From NCBI GenBank assembly GCA_903871335.1, contig CAIQGE010000025.1, forward strand, positions 124,001-188,000: 64,000 nt of DNA. The letters are read 5' to 3'. The DNA comes from an uncultured Actinomycetes bacterium. GTDB lineage: Bacteria > Actinomycetota > Acidimicrobiia > Acidimicrobiales > RAAP-2. How positions within the stretch are numbered: position 1 is the stretch's first letter; every line of letters begins with the position of its first letter. A program made the position numbers and the translations under genes. The notes beneath the pieces are model-generated. The model ran no database searches, was not told where the DNA came from, and saw only the letters and a program-made list of their open reading frames with translations. Positions 15,358-24,265 of the stretch are shown in pieces.

Positions 15358-15570
15358 TTGGCGTCGCCGACAACCACCCGGCATAAGGCGTCACTCCATT
15401 GGCGCCCGCACATTCGCGTGGCTCCCTGTTGCTGGGCGCGTGAACTCTCCTGCGGCCATTGCTCGGGTTCCAATTTCCGTGGCCACTTCCGTCCGACGGC
15501 CACCCCCAACCTTCCTCGATGTCCTGACCTCTCCATTGACCCTCACCCCGCGGTAATTCGGTCCACGGGG
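15358..15570. other. Non-coding stretch upstream of mraZ
   Basis: No convincing gene on either strand. The minus-strand open frames here are long only because of base composition. There is no tRNA-like or terminator-like structure. A TTGACC sits at 15536-15541 without a matching -10. The MraZ-box array follows. Confidence 0.6.
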
Positions 15571-15660
15571 TCCCGATGGCGCGAAATGGCGTAAAAGGGC
15601 GCGAAATGGCGGCTAGTGGTGGAAAATGGTGTAAAGTGGCGCGGAGTGGAGGGAAGTGGT
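15571..15660 (+). promoter_or_regulatory. Array of nine 10-bp MraZ-box-like repeats
   Basis: Nine consecutive decamers in exact 10-bp phase, each ending in ATGG/GTGG plus C, T or A. Examples are GCGAAATGGC, GTAAAGTGGC and GGGAAGTGGT; one unit is degenerate (AAGGGC). The core AAAGTGG resembles the AAAGTG(T/G)N3 box bound by the ring-shaped MraZ repressor upstream of dcw operons. Most described operators have three or four copies. Location 29 bases before mraZ fits autoregulation. Confidence 0.8.
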
Positions 15661-15674
15661 GGGGAACCACTTCC
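15652..15674 (+). promoter_or_regulatory. Inverted repeat abutting the mraZ Shine-Dalgarno
   Basis: GGAAGTGGT, spacer GGGGA, ACCACTTCC: perfect 9-bp arms. The left arm is the last MraZ-box unit, the right arm its reverse complement. The hairpin ends one base before GAGGAGG (15675-15681), so in RNA it could affect access to the ribosome site. In DNA it gives an extra box on the opposite strand. Confidence 0.5.
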
Positions 15675-15688
15675 GAGGAGGCAAGACC

Positions 15689-16114
15689 GTGCTGGGCTTC
15701 GTGGGGCGCTTTGAGCACTCTCTGGACGCCAAGGGGCGCGTGATTCTGCCTGCTCGTTTCCGCCCTGAATTCGAACGTGGTGGCCATCTGACCCAGCACT
15801 ACGAGGGCTGTTTGGCCTTGTGGACTCCGGGTGAATTTTCTCGTCAGCTCGGTGAGATGCTCGATGTCTCTCGTGCCGGCACGACCCAAGACCGGAATCG
15901 TGCCCGAGTCTGGGCGGCGGGTGCCAGTGACGTCGAAATTGACCGACAGGGCCGTCTGGCGCTTCCGGCATCCGCCCGAGCCTTTGCCGACGTGACGTCT
16001 GAAGTTTTGGTTATTGGCTCCATCGACCGAATCGAACTCTGGAATCCTCGCCGATTCTCAGAACGGGTTGCTCCCGCGGAGGACTTCTTCAGCGGTGGCG
16101 ACCTTGACCAATGA
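15689..16114 (+). CDS. mraZ: Transcriptional regulator MraZ
   Basis: A 141-residue protein with two SpoVT/AbrB-like half-domains. Each carries the DxxxR motif: HSLDAKGRVILPARFR near the N-terminus and DRQGRLALPASARAFA after the midpoint. MraZ forms octamers or dodecamers that bind repeated boxes upstream of the dcw operon and repress it. An open frame begins at 15656, but GTG 15689 is preferred: GAGGAGG is seven bases upstream and the protein then starts LGFVGRFEHSLD as in the family. Confidence 0.95.
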   Translation: MLGFVGRFEHSLDAKGRVILPARFRPEFERGGHLTQHYEGCLALWTPGEFSRQLGEMLDVSRAGTTQDRNRARVWAAGASDVEIDRQGRLALPASARAFADVTSEVLVIGSIDRIELWNPRRFSERVAPAEDFFSGGDLDQ

Positions 16115-16257
16115 AAGGAATGAATTCCATACGAACGGGCACTGCGTTGATGACCATGCGCAGCCTTGCGATCGACACGGATGAGGACATTTCCTCCACC
16201 CGTCCGAATTGCCGTTTGGTGAGCACCCACTCGCCAGCGTCGATCGAAAGGCTGCAG

Positions 16258-17199
16258 ATGGCCAACAACTTTGAACACACTCCGGTCCTCGCTTCAGAAG
16301 TCGTGGATCTGTTTGCCGACCTGCCGGTCGGAGTGTTGGTGGACGCCACTTTGGGAGGTGGGGGACACGCGGAATTGCTATTGGACGCTGCGCCCGAGTC
16401 ACGTCTCATCGGCATCGACCGTGACGTCGTCGCCCGTCACGCTGCCGGAGAGCGACTCGCTCGCTTCGGCGAGCGTGTGCGGATCGTGCCGGGCACTTTT
16501 GGCGACCTGGTAGGAATTTTGGAGCGAGAGTCGGGCTTCGTCAATGGCGCACCGATCGTGGGAATTCTCGCTGATCTCGGTGTGTCGTCCCCTCAATTGG
16601 ATGACGCCGCCCGCGGTTTTTCCTTTCGGTCGGATGCTCCCTTGGACATGAGGATGGATCAAACCTCCGGAATGACGGCGGCGGAGTTTCTTCTTGAGGT
16701 CGACGCTCAGGAACTCACGCGCCTTCTTCGTGAACACGGTGAAGGTCGATTCGCTGGCGCGATTTCGCGCTCCATCATTTCCTCGGCACCTCGCACGACG
16801 TCGGAACTGGTCGCCGCGGTGGAACGAGCCGTTCCTCCGGCGGCCCGGCGCCGAGGACACGTGGCTACGCGCGTTTTTCAGGCACTCCGAGTCAGTGTGA
16901 ACGACGAAGAGAGCCAATTGGACTCCATGTTGGAAAGCGCTATCGCTCACGTGAGTGCCGGCGGTGTCGTCGTCGTGATCTCGTATCACTCAGGCGAAGA
17001 CAAAGTGGTCAAGAAGGTGTTCGCGACAGCGGCGACGGGCGGGTGCACGTGTCCATCGGAATTGGGGTGCGTATGCGGCGCGGTTCCGATCATGCGAGTT
17101 CTCAAGGCCAGTGCTGTCTTGGCCACGTCGGACGAAATTGAACGGAACCCTCGGTCTCGCTCGGCGCGCCTCCGGGCGGCTTGGAAGTTGTCCGCATGA
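16258..17199 (+). CDS. rsmH: 16S rRNA (cytosine1402-N4)-methyltransferase RsmH (MraW)
   Basis: A 313-residue SAM-dependent methyltransferase. FEHTPVLASEVVDLF opens the family fold, DATLGGGGHAELLL (29-42) is the SAM loop, and DLGVSSPQLDDAARGFSF carries the signature near residue 110. The C-terminus FATAATGGCTCPSE and RSRSARLRAAWKL are also typical. ATG 16258 has GAAAGG six bases upstream. An in-frame ATG at 16111 would overlap mraZ's stop but adds 49 residues with no family resemblance. Methylates C1402 in the ribosomal P site. Confidence 0.93.
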   Translation: MANNFEHTPVLASEVVDLFADLPVGVLVDATLGGGGHAELLLDAAPESRLIGIDRDVVARHAAGERLARFGERVRIVPGTFGDLVGILERESGFVNGAPIVGILADLGVSSPQLDDAARGFSFRSDAPLDMRMDQTSGMTAAEFLLEVDAQELTRLLREHGEGRFAGAISRSIISSAPRTTSELVAAVERAVPPAARRRGHVATRVFQALRVSVNDEESQLDSMLESAIAHVSAGGVVVVISYHSGEDKVVKKVFATAATGGCTCPSELGCVCGAVPIMRVLKASAVLATSDEIERNPRSRSARLRAAWKLSA

Positions 17200-17654
17200 G
17201 CATCATTTCTTTTCCTCGTCGCGAGGTCACGCGTGTCCCGTCGAGGCCGAAGACGACTCGTCGCGCAGTCACGACGACGCCACGTTCGACGCACCGTGTG
17301 GAGCGTCGAACGCTTCGCTCGCGTGTGGCCGGAATTTCACTACCTATGCGAGCCGCGGCCGTGGGAACGGTGGCGCTCTTCGTTGTTTTGGTGGGCAATA
17401 CCTACTCCGCGCAGCGACAAGTGCAATTGCACCAGATGCAAACTCAATTACTGCAAGCTCAGTCGGCGTACGCCGAGCAGGTCGCGACGCTGACGAATGT
17501 GGCTGATCCCGCGCGTGTCGCCAGCCGAGCGGGATCACTGCACCTGGTCGTGCCGTCGTCGGTATCGCAGATTGCGCCCGTTTCTTTGGACACACCTCTT
17601 CCTCTGCCCAAGTTGGCGGGGAATGATGTCGTTACGACGAGGACGTATCAGTGA
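17196..17654 (+). CDS. ftsL: FtsL-like septum protein
   Basis: A 152-residue bitopic protein: a basic Ser/Thr/Arg-rich cytoplasmic tail (1-50), a single helix (about 51-69), then a Gln-rich coiled coil (QRQVQLHQMQTQLLQAQSAY) and an extracytoplasmic tail ending in Pro/Leu-rich sequence. Sequence identity is never high in FtsL, so the call rests on topology and position between rsmH and ftsI. It overlaps rsmH by ATGA and ftsI by GTGA. Expected to join FtsQ/FtsB and activate FtsW-FtsI. Confidence 0.8.
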   Translation: MSIISFPRREVTRVPSRPKTTRRAVTTTPRSTHRVERRTLRSRVAGISLPMRAAAVGTVALFVVLVGNTYSAQRQVQLHQMQTQLLQAQSAYAEQVATLTNVADPARVASRAGSLHLVVPSSVSQIAPVSLDTPLPLPKLAGNDVVTTRTYQ

Positions 17655-19489
17655 ATCAACGTGGGGCACCGGGAGCCGCGCGACCCATTCCTCTTCGTCC
17701 GCTGGCCGCCACGAACGCGCCCTTCTTTGCTCGCCGCCTGCGGTGGACCCACGTGGGGATCGCGGTCGTGTTTCTCGCGCTTCTCACGCGCCTTGCGTTC
17801 ATTCAAATCGCTGATGGCTCGTATTACTCGAAACTATCGATTGAGCAAGTCCGCACCGACGTATCGGTGCCCCCGTTGCGTGGTGCCATGTACGACCGTA
17901 ACGGCAGCATCCTCGCGATCTCTTCTCCGACATCGCTCGTCGTCGCCGACGACTTTCAGATCACTCATCCCACGACGGAAGCCGCCGCGCTATCGCCGTA
18001 CCTGGGCATGCCGGCGAGCACCCTCGCACCGCTTCTCGCTCGTCACAGCGGGTACGTGGTTCTCGATTCCTCACTGAGCTTGAGCCAGGGTCACGCCCTC
18101 GCGCAGCAATATTTCCCCGGAATTGATGTGCTGAGCTCATCCAAGCGCACGTATCCCAATGGGGAATTGGCGACGTCGCTGATCGGCGGGATCAATGCGT
18201 CGGCGGCAGGATCCGCGGGACTCGAATATCAATATCAGGGCCTCTTGGGCGGCCAGGCGGGACTCGAGAGGATCTTCGCGTCGCCCTCGGGAATTGCTCT
18301 GCCCAGTTCCCACGTCACCGTGCTCCGCAAGGCCACCACCGGCAAGGGCATGGAGCTATCGGTCGACACCGCGTTGCAATTCGTCACCGAACAAGCACTG
18401 GGCCAGCAACTGCGAGCGACGGGGGGACTCACGGGGGTCGCCATCGTGATGGACGTGAAGACGGGGCAGATCCTGGCGAATGCTTCTCTCGTGAACACCG
18501 CCGTCAATGCCGGCGTCTTAGGGCCGATTTCGAATTGGTCAAAGAGCATCGGCGTTCCCGGCATCAAGCAAACAATCAACGACCTCGCGTTCACCCAAAC
18601 GTACGAGCCCGGATCTGTCTTCAAAATCGTCCCGTTCTCGGCAGCCCTTAACGCGAACGCCATCACTCCCACGAGTCACTTTTCGGTTCCCTACAGCGTT
18701 ACCGTCGACGGTCGCGTGTTCCACGACGCCGAGCGACACGGCATTGAGAATCTCACGACGACAAATATTCTCGCCCAGTCGTCCAACATCGGTACGTACG
18801 AAATCGCCAGTCGCGTCGGGAAGACCGGTTTGTTGCACCAAGTCCAATTGTTGGGATTCGGCATGCCGACGGGTCTTAGTTATCCGGGAGAATCTCCGGG
18901 CCTTCTCGTGAACGCGGCCCAGTGGTCCGGCAGCGACCTCGCGGCGCTCCCGATCGGTCAGGTGGACGCCGTGACACCCATCGAAGTCCTCGACGCGTAC
19001 AACTCGATCGCGAATCAAGGTGTGTACGTAGCGCCCAAGTTGGTCTTGGCCAAGATCAATGCTGACGGCACGATGGTCCCCACACCGAAGAGCGCCACGC
19101 ATCGAGCCTTGAGCACGACGGTGGCATCAGAATTAACGAACATGCTCGAGCAAGTAGTTCTCGACGGGACAGGTACGAATGCCCTGATTCCGGGCTACCA
19201 GGTAGCCGGGAAGACGGGAACGAGCCAGATTCCCACGCCGGGCCACGCTTCGTACATCACCGGCGCGTATAACGCGAGTTTCGTCGGTTTCGCTCCCGCG
19301 AATCACCCCGTCTTGTCGATGATTGTTGTGGTGCAACGGCCTCAAACAGTGATTTTCGGTGGTTCGGTTGCCGCCCCCGTATTTCAGCGTGTGATGAGTT
19401 ACGCCCTGCACCACTACGGCATTCCGGCGTCAGGTCCGGTCGAAGTTACGAAGCATTCGGGGGCCACCGTTGCATCGGACGTGACGTGA
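17651..19489 (+). CDS. ftsI: Septal class B penicillin-binding protein FtsI (PBP3)
   Basis: A 612-residue transpeptidase: N-terminal signal-anchor helix (about 32-51), a pedestal domain starting RGAMYDRNGSILA, then the penicillin-binding domain. The three catalytic motifs are SVFK (Ser322, Lys325), SSN near residue 378 and KTG in VAGKTGTSQ. It crosslinks septal peptidoglycan together with FtsW. GTG start overlapping the upstream stop. The class A transglycosylase domain is absent, as expected. Confidence 0.95.
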   Translation: MNQRGAPGAARPIPLRPLAATNAPFFARRLRWTHVGIAVVFLALLTRLAFIQIADGSYYSKLSIEQVRTDVSVPPLRGAMYDRNGSILAISSPTSLVVADDFQITHPTTEAAALSPYLGMPASTLAPLLARHSGYVVLDSSLSLSQGHALAQQYFPGIDVLSSSKRTYPNGELATSLIGGINASAAGSAGLEYQYQGLLGGQAGLERIFASPSGIALPSSHVTVLRKATTGKGMELSVDTALQFVTEQALGQQLRATGGLTGVAIVMDVKTGQILANASLVNTAVNAGVLGPISNWSKSIGVPGIKQTINDLAFTQTYEPGSVFKIVPFSAALNANAITPTSHFSVPYSVTVDGRVFHDAERHGIENLTTTNILAQSSNIGTYEIASRVGKTGLLHQVQLLGFGMPTGLSYPGESPGLLVNAAQWSGSDLAALPIGQVDAVTPIEVLDAYNSIANQGVYVAPKLVLAKINADGTMVPTPKSATHRALSTTVASELTNMLEQVVLDGTGTNALIPGYQVAGKTGTSQIPTPGHASYITGAYNASFVGFAPANHPVLSMIVVVQRPQTVIFGGSVAAPVFQRVMSYALHHYGIPASGPVEVTKHSGATVASDVT

Positions 19490-20877
19490 TGAATCTCGCC
19501 GACGTCCTTCGAGGTGTTGATCTCTCGAGCGACATTCCTGACGTGGACGTGTCCCGCGTGGAAATCGATTCGCGGCGCTGCACTCCGGGAACCTTGTTCT
19601 TTGCGATGCCCGGTCACAGCGAAAGTGGCTCTCGCTACATCGACGACGCCGTCCTTCGCGGTGCGGTGGCTGTGGTGACGGCGACTGGCGGTACCGCTCT
19701 CGTGCCGACGGTGCTCGTCGACGACAAAATCCTGGGCGACGTGCTCGTACGAGCGTGCCAGAACGTCGCCGGGCATCCCGAAACCTCGATCGGTCTTCTG
19801 GGGGTGACGGGAACGAACGGCAAGACGAGCGTGACGACGATTTTCGCGGAATTGTGGCGGATGCTCGGGTACTCGGCGGACGTTATTGGAACGCTCACCC
19901 ACGAGCGCACCACTCCCGCCTCGCCGGAGCTGTATCGGGAGCTCGCTCGATTTCGAGATACGGGTGGAGAGCGGCCGGTGATGGCACTCGAGGTTTCGAG
20001 TCACGCCCTCACTCAAGGTCGTGTTGACGGATTGCGTTTCGACGTTGTCGCCTTTACGAATCTCTCGTTGGATCATTTGGATTATCACGGCTCGATGGAG
20101 GAGTACTTCCTCGCCAAGGCGGAACTCTTTACCGCGCGACGCGCTGCGCGGGCCGTGGTCTTTGTGGACGATCCCTATGGCGAACGACTCGTGTCGCGGA
20201 TCGCCGTCCCCGTCACCGCGGTCTCGCGACGCGACGCCTCCAACGTGGAAATGAATGTGGGTGACACGCGCTTCACGTGGCGAGGTCAGGACGTCCGGTC
20301 GAAATTGTCCGGCGCGTTCAACATCGATAACGCGCTGATTGCGTTGACGTGCGCGGTCGAGCTCGGAGCATCAGAAGCCGAGGCGGCCGACGCCATGGCC
20401 TCGTGTACGGGCGTGCCGGGTCGCTTTGAGATCATCCAGAGACATTCGCCGACGGTCATTGTTGATTACGCACACACTCCCGACGGACTTGAGCGTGTCC
20501 TGCGAGATGCTCGGTCGATGGCGGGCGTTGGTCGGGTGGTAGTCGTCTTCGGCTGTGGAGGGGATCGAGACCGGACCAAGAGGCCGGTGATGGGTCGGGT
20601 CGCGGGAAACGAAGCGGATGTCGTGGTGTTGACGTCCGATAATCCCCGAAGTGAGGACCCGGAGGCGATCTTGGACGAGATTCTCTCTGGCGTCGACGAT
20701 GGAGTCGTCGTTCATCGTGAGGTCGACCGCCGTCGAGCGATCCAATGGGCGATCAAAACGCTCCTTCCCGAAGATCTTCTGGTTATTGCGGGAAAAGGGC
20801 ACGAAAAGACACAGATTGTCGGTGCGAACGTGCTCGAATTTGACGACCGCCGTGTGGCGCGGGAACTACTGGGATGA
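19489..20877 (+). CDS. murE: UDP-MurNAc-tripeptide ligase MurE
   Basis: A 462-residue Mur ligase with the P-loop GVTGTNGKTSVTT (about 105-117), EVSSHALTQGRVDG, and HTPDGLERVL in the third domain. DNPR at residues 384-387 is the motif that selects meso-diaminopimelate as third residue, so the cell wall is predicted to be DAP-type. ATG 19489 shares one base with the ftsI stop; a GTG three bases upstream is the alternative. The gene is followed directly by mraY, without the usual murF. Confidence 0.95.
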   Translation: MNLADVLRGVDLSSDIPDVDVSRVEIDSRRCTPGTLFFAMPGHSESGSRYIDDAVLRGAVAVVTATGGTALVPTVLVDDKILGDVLVRACQNVAGHPETSIGLLGVTGTNGKTSVTTIFAELWRMLGYSADVIGTLTHERTTPASPELYRELARFRDTGGERPVMALEVSSHALTQGRVDGLRFDVVAFTNLSLDHLDYHGSMEEYFLAKAELFTARRAARAVVFVDDPYGERLVSRIAVPVTAVSRRDASNVEMNVGDTRFTWRGQDVRSKLSGAFNIDNALIALTCAVELGASEAEAADAMASCTGVPGRFEIIQRHSPTVIVDYAHTPDGLERVLRDARSMAGVGRVVVVFGCGGDRDRTKRPVMGRVAGNEADVVVLTSDNPRSEDPEAILDEILSGVDDGVVVHREVDRRRAIQWAIKTLLPEDLLVIAGKGHEKTQIVGANVLEFDDRRVARELLG

Positions 20878-20886
20878 GGCGTTGAG

Positions 20887-21918
20887 ATGTTGAGTTTGAT
20901 GGAGTCGGGAGGAGCGGCGTTTCTCATCGCCCTCTTCGCCACGCCGTTGTTCATCCGATTCCTGCACCGTCGCAGCATGGGTCAACGTATTCGTGAGGAC
21001 GGCCCGGAGACTCACCGCGCGAAAGAGGGCACGCCCACCATGGGTGGCGTCGTCATCGTGGCGGCCGCGCTGATTGGTTACGTGGTGGGCCACTGGAGTT
21101 ATCACACCTTTACGCGCGCAGGTGTTTTGGTCGCCGCCACCCTTCTGGTATCGGGCCTGCTGGGATTCACGGACGACTACTTGGGCATTCGAAACGCCCG
21201 CAATCTGGGATTGAACAAGAGAGGAAAATTTGGCGGTCAACTGGCCATTGGCCTCACCTTCGCCGTCCTCGCAGTGTTTTGGGTGCACACCAAGACAACG
21301 CTGTCCTTTACACGGGCCAATTTGCCGGGGTGGCATCTGGGGAGCGCGGGATGGATGCTGCTCGCCATTTTTATTTTGGTTGCGACGTCGAACGCGGTGA
21401 ATTTCACCGATGGTTTGGATGGGCTCGCGGCTGGATCATCGACATTTTGCTTCGCGGTCTTGTCCATCATCGGCTATTGGCAGTTCCGACACTTCCCCCT
21501 GTATCACCTGCCTCCGGCACTCGACCTCGGTTTAATCGCTGTCGCTCTGGTGGGAGCCTGCCTGGGCTTTCTGTGGTGGAACGCCGCGCCCGCAAAGATC
21601 TACATGGGCGACACGGGTTCGCTAGCCATCGGAACGACGCTCGGCGCACTGTGTCTCCTCATGAATCTCGATCTTCTCCTGCTCGTCATCGGCGGCCTGT
21701 TTGTGGTGGAGGCAGCTTCCGTCGTTTTGCAGATTGTGAGCTTCCGGGTCTTCCGTCGACGTATCTTTCGCATGGCACCTATCCACCACCACTTTGAACT
21801 ACGAGGTTGGCCCGAGACCACCGTCATCATTCGGTTCTGGATCCTTTCGGGACTCTTGGCGGCTCTCGGGCTCGGGATCTTCTACGGTGACTTTCTCAAG
21901 ATCGCGAAGGTCGGATAG
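20887..21918 (+). CDS. mraY: Phospho-MurNAc-pentapeptide transferase MraY
   Basis: A 343-residue polytopic enzyme that makes lipid I from UDP-MurNAc-pentapeptide and undecaprenyl phosphate. The active-site elements are visible: FTDDYLGIRNARNLGL (Asp pair), NFTDGLDGLAAG, and the cytoplasmic HHHFELRGWPE loop near the C-terminus. About ten helices are expected. It is separated from murE by nine bases, and its stop shares a base with the ftsW GTG. Confidence 0.97.
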   Translation: MLSLMESGGAAFLIALFATPLFIRFLHRRSMGQRIREDGPETHRAKEGTPTMGGVVIVAAALIGYVVGHWSYHTFTRAGVLVAATLLVSGLLGFTDDYLGIRNARNLGLNKRGKFGGQLAIGLTFAVLAVFWVHTKTTLSFTRANLPGWHLGSAGWMLLAIFILVATSNAVNFTDGLDGLAAGSSTFCFAVLSIIGYWQFRHFPLYHLPPALDLGLIAVALVGACLGFLWWNAAPAKIYMGDTGSLAIGTTLGALCLLMNLDLLLLVIGGLFVVEAASVVLQIVSFRVFRRRIFRMAPIHHHFELRGWPETTVIIRFWILSGLLAALGLGIFYGDFLKIAKVG

Positions 21919-23165
21919 TGGCTCGTCGCGCAAAACAAATCGGTTCCGTCAACGTTCTCGAACGTTCCCTCGTGGCCGTGACCATTGTTCTGGTGATCGT
22001 CGGAATGATCGCCGTCGGCTCGGCGAGTGGACCGCAGTCCGTGGCGAACGGTTCGTCAATCTGGTCCTTCATGATGCGCGACGTGTTGTACGTCCTCGTT
22101 GGTCTCGGGGGATTCATGCTGGCCTGTCGCATGCCCACGCGGAGTTTGGCGCGATTGGCCGCCCCCGCGATGGTGGTCAGTCTCGGGCTCCTGGCTGTCG
22201 TTGAATTGATGGGAACGTCCACCATGGGTGGGCAACGCTGGCTGTCGTTTTCCTCCTTTTCTTTCCAACCCTCAGAACTCTTCAAGCTCACCGCTTGTTT
22301 GTATTTGGCGGTCACCATTGCACGCGTTGAACGAAGTTCACGTCACTGGATGGACATTCTCAAGTGGTCGGCGCCCGTCGCGCTGGGAGCAGGACTGATC
22401 TTCTTGGAGCCCGACATGGGCACCGCCTCGGTCGTTCTACTCGTGAGTTTCGGGATGTTGATTTTGGCGGGCATGCCACGGACGTCCATCCGTTTTCTTT
22501 CGCTCTTGGGGCTAGGAGCCCTCGGCGTCTTCGCCATTGCGGCGCCGTATCGACGACAGCGTTTGTTGTCGTTTCTTCATCCCGGTGCTGACCCCAATGG
22601 AGCGGGATACCAAGTCCTCCAAGCCAAGATCGGCTTGGGCGCGGGCAAGTGGACGGGTCTCGGATTCGGCAATAGTCGCGAAAAGTGGGGACTGTTGCCG
22701 AACGCGCACACCGACTTCATCTTTGCGATCATTGGCGAAGAGTTCGGCCTTATCGGCTCCATCCTCGTGCTCGGCATCTTCTTTTGGTTAATCACTCTCG
22801 GCATCCAAACTGCGCGGCGTGCTCCGGACCGGGAATCACAACTTCTGGCGAGTGGCATCACTTTGTGGCTCGCGCTAGAGACCATCATCAATGTCGCATC
22901 AGTAGTGGGGTGGTGGCCCGTGACGGGAATTCCCTTACCGTTCTTGTCGTACGGAGGTACGTCCCTCATCATCAACCTCCTGGCCCTTGGTCTGCTCGTC
23001 AACGTGGCTCGTCGCGCGACGACGGCACCACGGGAGACTCCGGCATCCGTGACGACGGCGCGCGCACCACTTCGTCCGCGTTACGCATCCGCGACGTCGA
23101 CGGCGCAACGTCGCGGAGCCACGGCGCACACTCCTCTCGTCCGCGAGCGACGACGGAAGCCCTAG
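21918..23165 (+). CDS. ftsW: SEDS peptidoglycan polymerase FtsW
   Basis: A 415-residue SEDS-family glycosyltransferase with about ten helices. Recognisable parts are GGQRWLSFSSFSFQPSELFKL, GAGLIFLEPDMGT, NSREKWGLLPNAHTDFIFAIIGEEFG (family-conserved extracytoplasmic loop) and PLPFLSYGGTSLI. It polymerises lipid II at the septum with FtsI. After the last helix there is a roughly 60-residue Arg/Thr/Ala-rich cytoplasmic tail. It replaces the usual murD-ftsW order, since murD is missing here. Confidence 0.95.
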   Translation: MARRAKQIGSVNVLERSLVAVTIVLVIVGMIAVGSASGPQSVANGSSIWSFMMRDVLYVLVGLGGFMLACRMPTRSLARLAAPAMVVSLGLLAVVELMGTSTMGGQRWLSFSSFSFQPSELFKLTACLYLAVTIARVERSSRHWMDILKWSAPVALGAGLIFLEPDMGTASVVLLVSFGMLILAGMPRTSIRFLSLLGLGALGVFAIAAPYRRQRLLSFLHPGADPNGAGYQVLQAKIGLGAGKWTGLGFGNSREKWGLLPNAHTDFIFAIIGEEFGLIGSILVLGIFFWLITLGIQTARRAPDRESQLLASGITLWLALETIINVASVVGWWPVTGIPLPFLSYGGTSLIINLLALGLLVNVARRATTAPRETPASVTTARAPLRPRYASATSTAQRRGATAHTPLVRERRRKP

Positions 23166-24265
23166 TGCGACCCCCCGTCGTCATTACCGGTGGGGGCACC
23201 GGTGGTCACATTTTCCCCATGCAGGCCATCGCCGAAGCGCTGATCGCCCAGGGCGCGTCGCCCACGGAACTCCTCTTTGTTGGTTCACGCCGTGGCAAGG
23301 AGAGAGAACTACTCGGCCAAGAGGCGACGCCCCTCGTTCTGCTTCCGGGTCGCGGAATTCGACGCTCGTTATCGCCGCGCGCTCTTCTGCAAAATTGCGG
23401 AGCGATTCTTGGTTTAGTGAGCGCGCAAGTGCGAGCGGTTCTGCTCGTTGGTCGGCTCCGACCAGCGGCCGTCGTGAGTGTGGGTGGATACGCCTCGTTT
23501 GCTGTGTCCGTGGCCGCGGTCATCTGGCGACGACCACTCGTTCTCGTTGAATTCGACGCCACTCAGGGAGCGGCACATCGCGTGGTGTCGCGGTTTGCCA
23601 CCCGGCGTTGCGTGGCGTTCTCTTCGGATGATTCTCGTGACGTCGTGACCGGAGCACCGCTGCGTGCGACCATCAGCACCATTGATCGTTCGGGTGCGCG
23701 CGTCAATGGTGCGTCACGTACCAGGTGGACCGTCGTGGTGATGACGGGGTCGCTCGGCGCCTCGTCGGTCAATCGTGCCGTTGTGGCGCTCGCCGACGTG
23801 TTGCGAGATCGCGACGACGTCACTTTGCTGCACGTGACCGGTGATCGTGATTTTGACTGGGTGCGAAAGAGTCGCGACGTTCGTCCCACCGATCGACTCG
23901 ACTATCGCGTCGAAGCCTTTGGCGACATGACGACGTTGTGGTCGACCTGCGATGTCGCGATCTGTCGTGCGGGTGCCATGACGGTGGCGGAGTTGACCTA
24001 CCTGGGCATCCCATCGGTCTTGGTGCCACTCCCGGATGCCCCCGGAGATCATCAAACGAAGAACGCACGCGTTCTCGAAGACGCGGGTGCGGCCGTCGTC
24101 ATCAACGACTCAGAGGTCTCGGGTGCCGTTTTGGCGCGCGTGATTGATGACCTGTTCGCGCGTCCGGATCGGATGCAGGATATGGCTCGTGCGTCCCTCG
24201 CACTGGGACACGCCGACGCCGCGGCCGCGATTGCCGACGTCGTCAGGGAGGTCAGCGAGTGGTGA
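23165..24265 (+). CDS. murG: UDP-GlcNAc:lipid I GlcNAc-transferase MurG
   Basis: A 366-residue GT28 enzyme that converts lipid I to lipid II on the inner membrane face. GGGTGGHIFPMQAIAEAL at the N-terminus is the first G-loop, VMTGSLGASSVNRAV the second, and CRAGAMTVAELTYLGIPSVLVPLP the UDP-GlcNAc site. The open frame extends to 22685 inside ftsW. GTG 23165, sharing one base with the ftsW stop, is the sensible start because homology begins there. Confidence 0.95.
   Translation: MRPPVVITGGGTGGHIFPMQAIAEALIAQGASPTELLFVGSRRGKERELLGQEATPLVLLPGRGIRRSLSPRALLQNCGAILGLVSAQVRAVLLVGRLRPAAVVSVGGYASFAVSVAAVIWRRPLVLVEFDATQGAAHRVVSRFATRRCVAFSSDDSRDVVTGAPLRATISTIDRSGARVNGASRTRWTVVVMTGSLGASSVNRAVVALADVLRDRDDVTLLHVTGDRDFDWVRKSRDVRPTDRLDYRVEAFGDMTTLWSTCDVAICRAGAMTVAELTYLGIPSVLVPLPDAPGDHQTKNARVLEDAGAAVVINDSEVSGAVLARVIDDLFARPDRMQDMARASLALGHADAAAAIADVVREVSEW

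Follow-up and report, generated by a model that had tools for sequence, protein, structure and literature searches.

In an uncultured member of the Acidimicrobiia, the mraZ gene at the head of the dcw cluster is preceded by nine decameric boxes set in unbroken 10-bp register, an array that very probably constitutes an enlarged MraZ autorepression operator covering the dcw promoter. We infer the binding of MraZ, the repression, the start site and the number of protein rings from the sequence and that of its relatives. The box number is a matter of observation, and it places the array at the top of a continuum among related bacteria, as an extreme and not a singular case. Positions given below are those of the window, the whole 64-kb stretch of DNA that was analyzed, in which the features bearing on the argument are as follows:

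15573-15662, forward strand: nine 10-bp phased MraZ boxes, consensus aAAGTGGnGn (from matrix scoring and sequence)
15632-15637, forward strand: inferred -10 element TAAAGT at the junction of boxes 6 and 7 (from the TA at the matching junction of genus arrays)
15652-15674, forward strand: 9-bp inverted repeat formed by box 9 and an anti-box before the Shine-Dalgarno sequence (from sequence and stem comparison)
15676-15681, forward strand: Shine-Dalgarno sequence AGGAGG (from sequence)
15689-16114, forward strand: mraZ, with a GTG start at 15689 and two MraZ domains (Pfam PF02381, 82.7 bits; PDB 1n0e, E 6e-15; fold match, Z 18.6)
16111-17199, forward strand: rsmH/mraW, the next dcw gene (PF01795)
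17651-24265, forward strand: further dcw genes, namely a transpeptidase (ftsI-like), a Mur ligase, mraY, ftsW and murG (from Pfam, with names assigned from families and gene order)

The gene directly behind the array encodes a true MraZ, as established by its PF02381 match, its sequence match to 1n0e and its fold. The predicted model of the 141-residue product (mean pLDDT 86) aligns with MraZ of M. pneumoniae (1n0e) over 137 residues (Z 18.6, rmsd 3.8), and it also aligns with two complexes of M. genitalium MraZ with promoter DNA, 9r4j and 9sz7, of which 9sz7 is by its title a 4-box promoter complex. MraZ is in any case widespread in the phylum, being present in 115 of the 119 genomes sampled. 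The dcw genes of the window run in the order mraZ, rsmH, short ORF, transpeptidase, Mur ligase, mraY, ftsW and murG, the ORF that occupies the place of ftsL being short and without a Pfam match. Neither murF nor murD is interposed in the stretch from the Mur ligase gene through mraY to ftsW (19486-21918); murD was found above the cut-off on contig C10, and the best murF match, which falls below the cut-off, lies on contig C37.

The nine decamers start exactly 10 bp apart throughout 15573-15662. A sequence-only reading of this DNA had described them as nine decamers with ATGG or GTGG cores in exact 10-bp phase; the phase stood as described, as did the cores of eight boxes, the third carrying AGGG instead (boxes 1 to 9: ATGG, ATGG, AGGG, ATGG, GTGG, ATGG, GTGG, GTGG and GTGG), while box 1 proved marginal. 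Scored with a matrix built from relatives, the boxes give, from first to ninth, 1.95, 8.7, 6.1, 7.7, 7.6, 10.7, 11.7, 6.1 and 10.1 bits, and the flanking decamers, two of which were scored on each side, give -6.3 to -17.8 bits, so that box 1 is weak and the ends of the array are sharp. The full run reaches 70.6 bits, the window having been left out of the training, and ranks highest among the 86 genus and order upstream regions scored, the matrix having been trained on these same regions except the window. Dinucleotide shuffles of the 170-bp upstream region (n=2000) reached at most 16.8 bits and five boxes, against 70.6 bits and nine. No other run in the window, whichever strand is read, exceeds 14 bits. 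Across the whole genome a 4-box TGG pattern matched the array (three overlapping matches) and one other place, and a reversed control gave one match; there is thus no sign of a second large array, and smaller sites may exist.

That the boxes are MraZ boxes, an identification which the sequence-only reading had drawn from resemblance, is borne out by their position, by the cognate MraZ, by a matrix common to the class and E. coli, and by the retention of all nine positions in the sister species. The designation of the nine decamers as an operator to which MraZ would bind is well supported, because these boxes recur in front of mraZ throughout the class and also in E. coli MG1655. The array stands immediately before mraZ, the first gene of the dcw cluster, consists of GTG-type direct repeats at 10-bp spacing that are recognized by a matrix common to E. 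coli, accompanies a true MraZ and holds a conserved place. A match to mraZ was found in 58 of the 60 genus genomes searched. From the class, 139 genomes had a match and 86 upstream regions were scored, with G072 left out for offering 61 bases only; 81 of these 86 exceed 15 bits, as against none of the 86 reverse strands. The genus and order scoring has dropped or missing rows for L080 and L096, which lack an anchor, and for L092 and L095, whose anchors are weak, and some genomes belong to more than one comparison set.

The sister species G006, the nearest relative, encodes an MraZ that is 86% identical, and its box cores differ from those of the window at 2 of 27 sites, both differences being T/G exchanges that preserve KGG, as compared with 22 of 63 non-core sites. 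The 90 bp of 5' flank are identical at 28 of 90 positions in an ungapped comparison, and the third codon positions of mraZ are 46% identical. The run in G006 keeps the same nine positions, one of them at only 0.4 bits. Since the cores of the array have been kept while the flanks were randomized, we rejected a functionless random or slippage repeat as an explanation.

Nine boxes exceed the three or four of studied bacteria (three in Mollicutes, four in E. coli and B. cenocepacia), just as the sequence-only reading had remarked, and the comparison of box number upstream of mraZ that it had proposed, once run across relatives, finds long arrays to be common in the Acidimicrobiia, with nine at the top. 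Among 86 genus and order regions, the window included, a contiguous run of nine boxes occurs in 5 regions, one of eight in 2, one of seven in 21, one of six in 29, one of five in 16 and one of four or fewer in 13, and 41 further named loci have runs of four (1 locus), five (7), six (19), seven (12) and eight (2). Most arrays of the genus contain six or seven boxes; the 86 class regions mostly have three to six per run, with a maximum of eight. Uniqueness of the nine could be ruled out, for with slips of 11-13 bp allowed two other loci, L179 and L263, have nine above-threshold boxes and the window eight, although their slip-allowed scores of 43.0 and 36.4 bits both lie below the 70.6 bits of the window.

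Elsewhere in the Actinomycetota, the best 30 by score of the 115 genomes with MraZ, a sample biased by that choice, show two to four boxes in 29 of 30 cases, counted with no score cut and with two-box runs near chance (the distance for L101 is unreliable owing to locus ends). With a cut of at least 18 bits, a chain count retains 21 of these 30 regions when the gene strand is read and 2 of 30 when the reverse strand is. One locus of the sample, L120 from an actinobacterium outside the class (G154), has a run of eight positions, seven of them above threshold, directly upstream of mraZ, and long arrays may therefore have arisen more than once.

Other Acidimicrobiia mraZ operators share both the box and its location with the window but usually have four to seven boxes and, outside the genus, often carry TTGAC and phase slips. 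The resemblance extends to the dcw promoter of E. coli, where phased GTGG-type decamers likewise lie just upstream of mraZ and RefSeq annotates a repressor; in strain MG1655 there are four phased boxes, as against nine in the window, and the stretch scored gives 27.0 bits on the Acidimicrobiia-trained matrix. We take these four boxes to be the sites bound by MraZ.

In Mollicutes the MraZ site is given as AAAGTGKN3 three times (PMC5282649), which agrees with the window in the AAAGTGG-like core, the 10-bp unit and the presence of a cognate MraZ (PMC5282649, PMC8475190) but differs in having three repeats against nine, the M. genitalium complex being titled a 4-box promoter. MraZ is described as a repressor in M. 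genitalium (PMC8475190). The four repeats of Burkholderia cenocepacia, each of 7 nt with a 3-nt spacer, overlap the start site downstream of the -10 element, and the E. coli repeats are placed likewise downstream of the -10 in the same account (PMC7761207). The array in the window shares this unit of 7 and 3 nt and overlaps a start site, here a presumed one; unlike the B. cenocepacia repeats, it also covers the inferred -10 element and extends about 60 bp beyond it on the upstream side. The MraZ passages of these three sources from the open-licence literature (PMC5282649, PMC7761207, PMC8475190) describe no array of the length found in the window, and one may be published elsewhere.

The register of the boxes needs to be distinguished from the pitch of the helix. 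The sequence-only reading had equated 10 bp with about one helical turn, which is not quite so: at 10.5 bp per turn, boxes 1 and 9 of a straight helix would be about 137 degrees out of phase. Over nine 10-bp boxes the DNA would therefore be overtwisted or curved, or separate rings would face differently. Strong boxes in the genus lie 10, 20, 30, 40, 50 and 60 bp apart with little between (10 bp 174 times and 11 bp once; 40 bp 72 times and 41 bp 4 times), and 318 of 323 chained steps measure 10 bp, the chain count disallowing steps below 10 bp. Genus arrays rarely carry a phase correction of 1-3 bp. Outside the genus the distances drift, with 40, 41, 42 and 43 bp occurring 18, 25, 12 and 17 times in 110 order and class regions and with 51-53 bp also common; in the class set 336 of 393 chained steps are of 10 bp and the rest of 11-13 bp. 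This pattern fits sub-arrays that are split by 1-3 bp, often at TTGAC, and that keep a long-range helical phase near 10.5.

A candidate -10 element lies within the array. In 48 of 56 genus arrays the dinucleotide TA stands at the junction just ahead of the third-to-last box, as compared with 5/59, 6/56, 2/56, 0/51, 0/27, 1/6 and 0/5 at the other junctions, and together with the box's own T it yields TAnnnT (TAAAGT in the window), which is the usual actinobacterial form of the -10; this anchor was chosen after inspection of the alignments. Outside the genus, TTGAC-N16-19-TAnnnT overlaps the array in 15 of the 24 order regions and 25 of the 76 class regions, against 3 of 1660 shuffled regions. 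A TTGAC -35 at the right spacing was found in none of 58 genus arrays, the window's included, and the window promoter is for this reason not certain. When the genus arrays are anchored on the -10 box (56 of 59, three being without the TA), the box positions from two upstream to one downstream are filled, at more than 2 bits, in at least 98%, the position two downstream in 89%, and those three to six upstream in 77, 48, 12 and 7%; in the window all of these positions are above zero bits, and all except the outermost exceed 2 bits. As a separate observation, the genus shows, at the third box position upstream of the -10 box, a tendency towards AATTTGG in place of AAAGTGG (among the 54 of 56 anchored arrays that are long enough), which is absent from the window.

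The mechanism we propose is that MraZ, encoded just downstream, would bind the phased boxes as rings. The boxes would begin some 60 bp before the inferred -10, pass through the presumed start site and reach into the leader, and the bound rings would exclude RNA polymerase, bringing about autorepression of mraZ and of the dcw genes that follow. Within the lineage, the operator may have grown upstream across the -35 region, now without TTGAC. More boxes would give tighter or more graded repression, either because more than one ring is loaded or because one ring has several registers at its disposal.

How the rings of such an autorepression operator would be arranged admits two main answers. It is close to an even call that a single ring engages about four boxes at once and that the extra boxes serve as alternative registers, through avidity or sliding. 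The title of the solved 4-box promoter complex agrees with this, as does the occupancy of the 56 anchored genus arrays, in which each of the five positions centred on the -10 box is occupied in no fewer than 89%, and the outer upstream positions progressively less often. The retention of all nine positions in the sister species despite randomized flanks, albeit with one at 0.4 bits, fits instead a function for the outer boxes. Somewhat less probable, though still a serious candidate, is an arrangement of two or more rings bound cooperatively side by side, since nine is more than twice the four boxes of the solved complex and the strict 10-bp register runs over the whole array and through nearly all chained genus steps. 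Against it stands the turn of the binding face by about 137 degrees over eight steps of relaxed DNA, by which adjacent rings would face different ways. The sequence-only reading had likewise raised two or more rings, or a full wrap, as possibilities.

The leader may add a further layer of control. The perfect 9-bp inverted repeat reported in the sequence-only reading is indeed present, pairing 15652-15660 with 15666-15674 across a 5-nt loop and ending one base before AGGAGG. It is rather unlikely, though not negligibly so, that this hairpin acts as a translational or RNA-stability element modulating mraZ on top of MraZ binding. An 8-pair core of the stem survives in the sister species, where one U-A pair has become U-G, in many genus members the final box can pair with a CC(A/G)C that precedes the Shine-Dalgarno sequence, and the joint stem score of 254 over 31 linker clusters (L061, with a truncated anchor, left out) lies above the shuffle mean of 213.7 (sd 15.8) but stays below the shuffle maximum of 265. 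The hairpin fold z-scores are -1.62 and -1.68, with 0.68 for a third species; in 44 of 58 genus members the stem is no longer than four pairs or is missing, and no Rfam family matches the window at gathering score. A long stem is kept only in the nearest relative, and hairpin conservation across the genus is weak.

The same inverted repeat creates a reverse-strand box, and the sequence-only reading had entertained an opposite-strand site for MraZ here. That suggestion fared less well: the box scores 8.4 bits in the window and 3.4 in G006, yet exceeds 2 bits in only 6 of 59 genus members, which makes a conserved opposite-strand box unlikely and led us to discard the reverse-strand sequence as a conserved tenth site. 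Taken together, the U-A to U-G change and the fall in the reverse-box score lean towards an RNA element over a reverse DNA box.

Three more far-reaching readings are each improbable. The first, which we regard as a long shot, would make the genus dcw promoter a continuous MraZ lattice, in which the -35 is gone, up to nine near slip-free turns of DNA are wrapped round the rim of one ring or spiralled over several, and the result is a closed promoter resembling a nucleosome, with the number of boxes setting its strength. Less probable again is the proposal that the -35 was lost since polymerase is now recruited by MraZ, or by a different factor, bound along the long array, with MraZ as an activator. 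Such a role would agree with the lack of TTGAC-N16-19-TAnnnT from all 58 genus arrays and its presence in the order and class, and with the increase in FtsZ that accompanied MraZ overexpression in M. gallisepticum (PMC8475190). However, MraZ figures as a repressor in that source, its account of E. coli included, and 51 of 76 class regions are likewise without TTGAC-N16-19-TAnnnT.

The least probable of all is that the repeat forms a G-quadruplex. Such a structure has been put forward for the mraZ promoter of Staphylococcus aureus, downstream of which it is placed, with similar motifs in other bacteria (PMC11796246). The array is G-rich, a 25-nt stretch from 15641 has a G4Hunter score of 1.56, and 15551-15700 holds three two-tetrad motifs, two of them within the array; over the 90 bp, however, G4Hunter falls to 0.72. 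We dismissed it as the main reading because 15551-15700 contains no canonical motif (four runs of at least three G, loops of 1-7) and because a quadruplex requires neither the 10-bp spacing nor the conserved T (88% in the matrix from relatives) and A positions of the box. The S. aureus G-rich tract called a quadruplex may itself be, or include, MraZ boxes, of which the passages concerned make no mention (PMC11796246).

MraZ is a widespread regulator of bacterial division, and recent structures are clarifying how its ring recognizes DNA. The array in the window, interpreted as an MraZ autorepression operator, would represent a known kind of switch that is unusually long, and as such it makes a good test case for the grip of the MraZ ring on DNA. 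Because related species carry from two to nine boxes, box number is a natural variable with which ring stoichiometry, wrapping and repression strength may be approached. The slipped arrays that have a -35, set beside the nearly seamless arrays that lack one, provide a lead on the co-evolution of operator and promoter.
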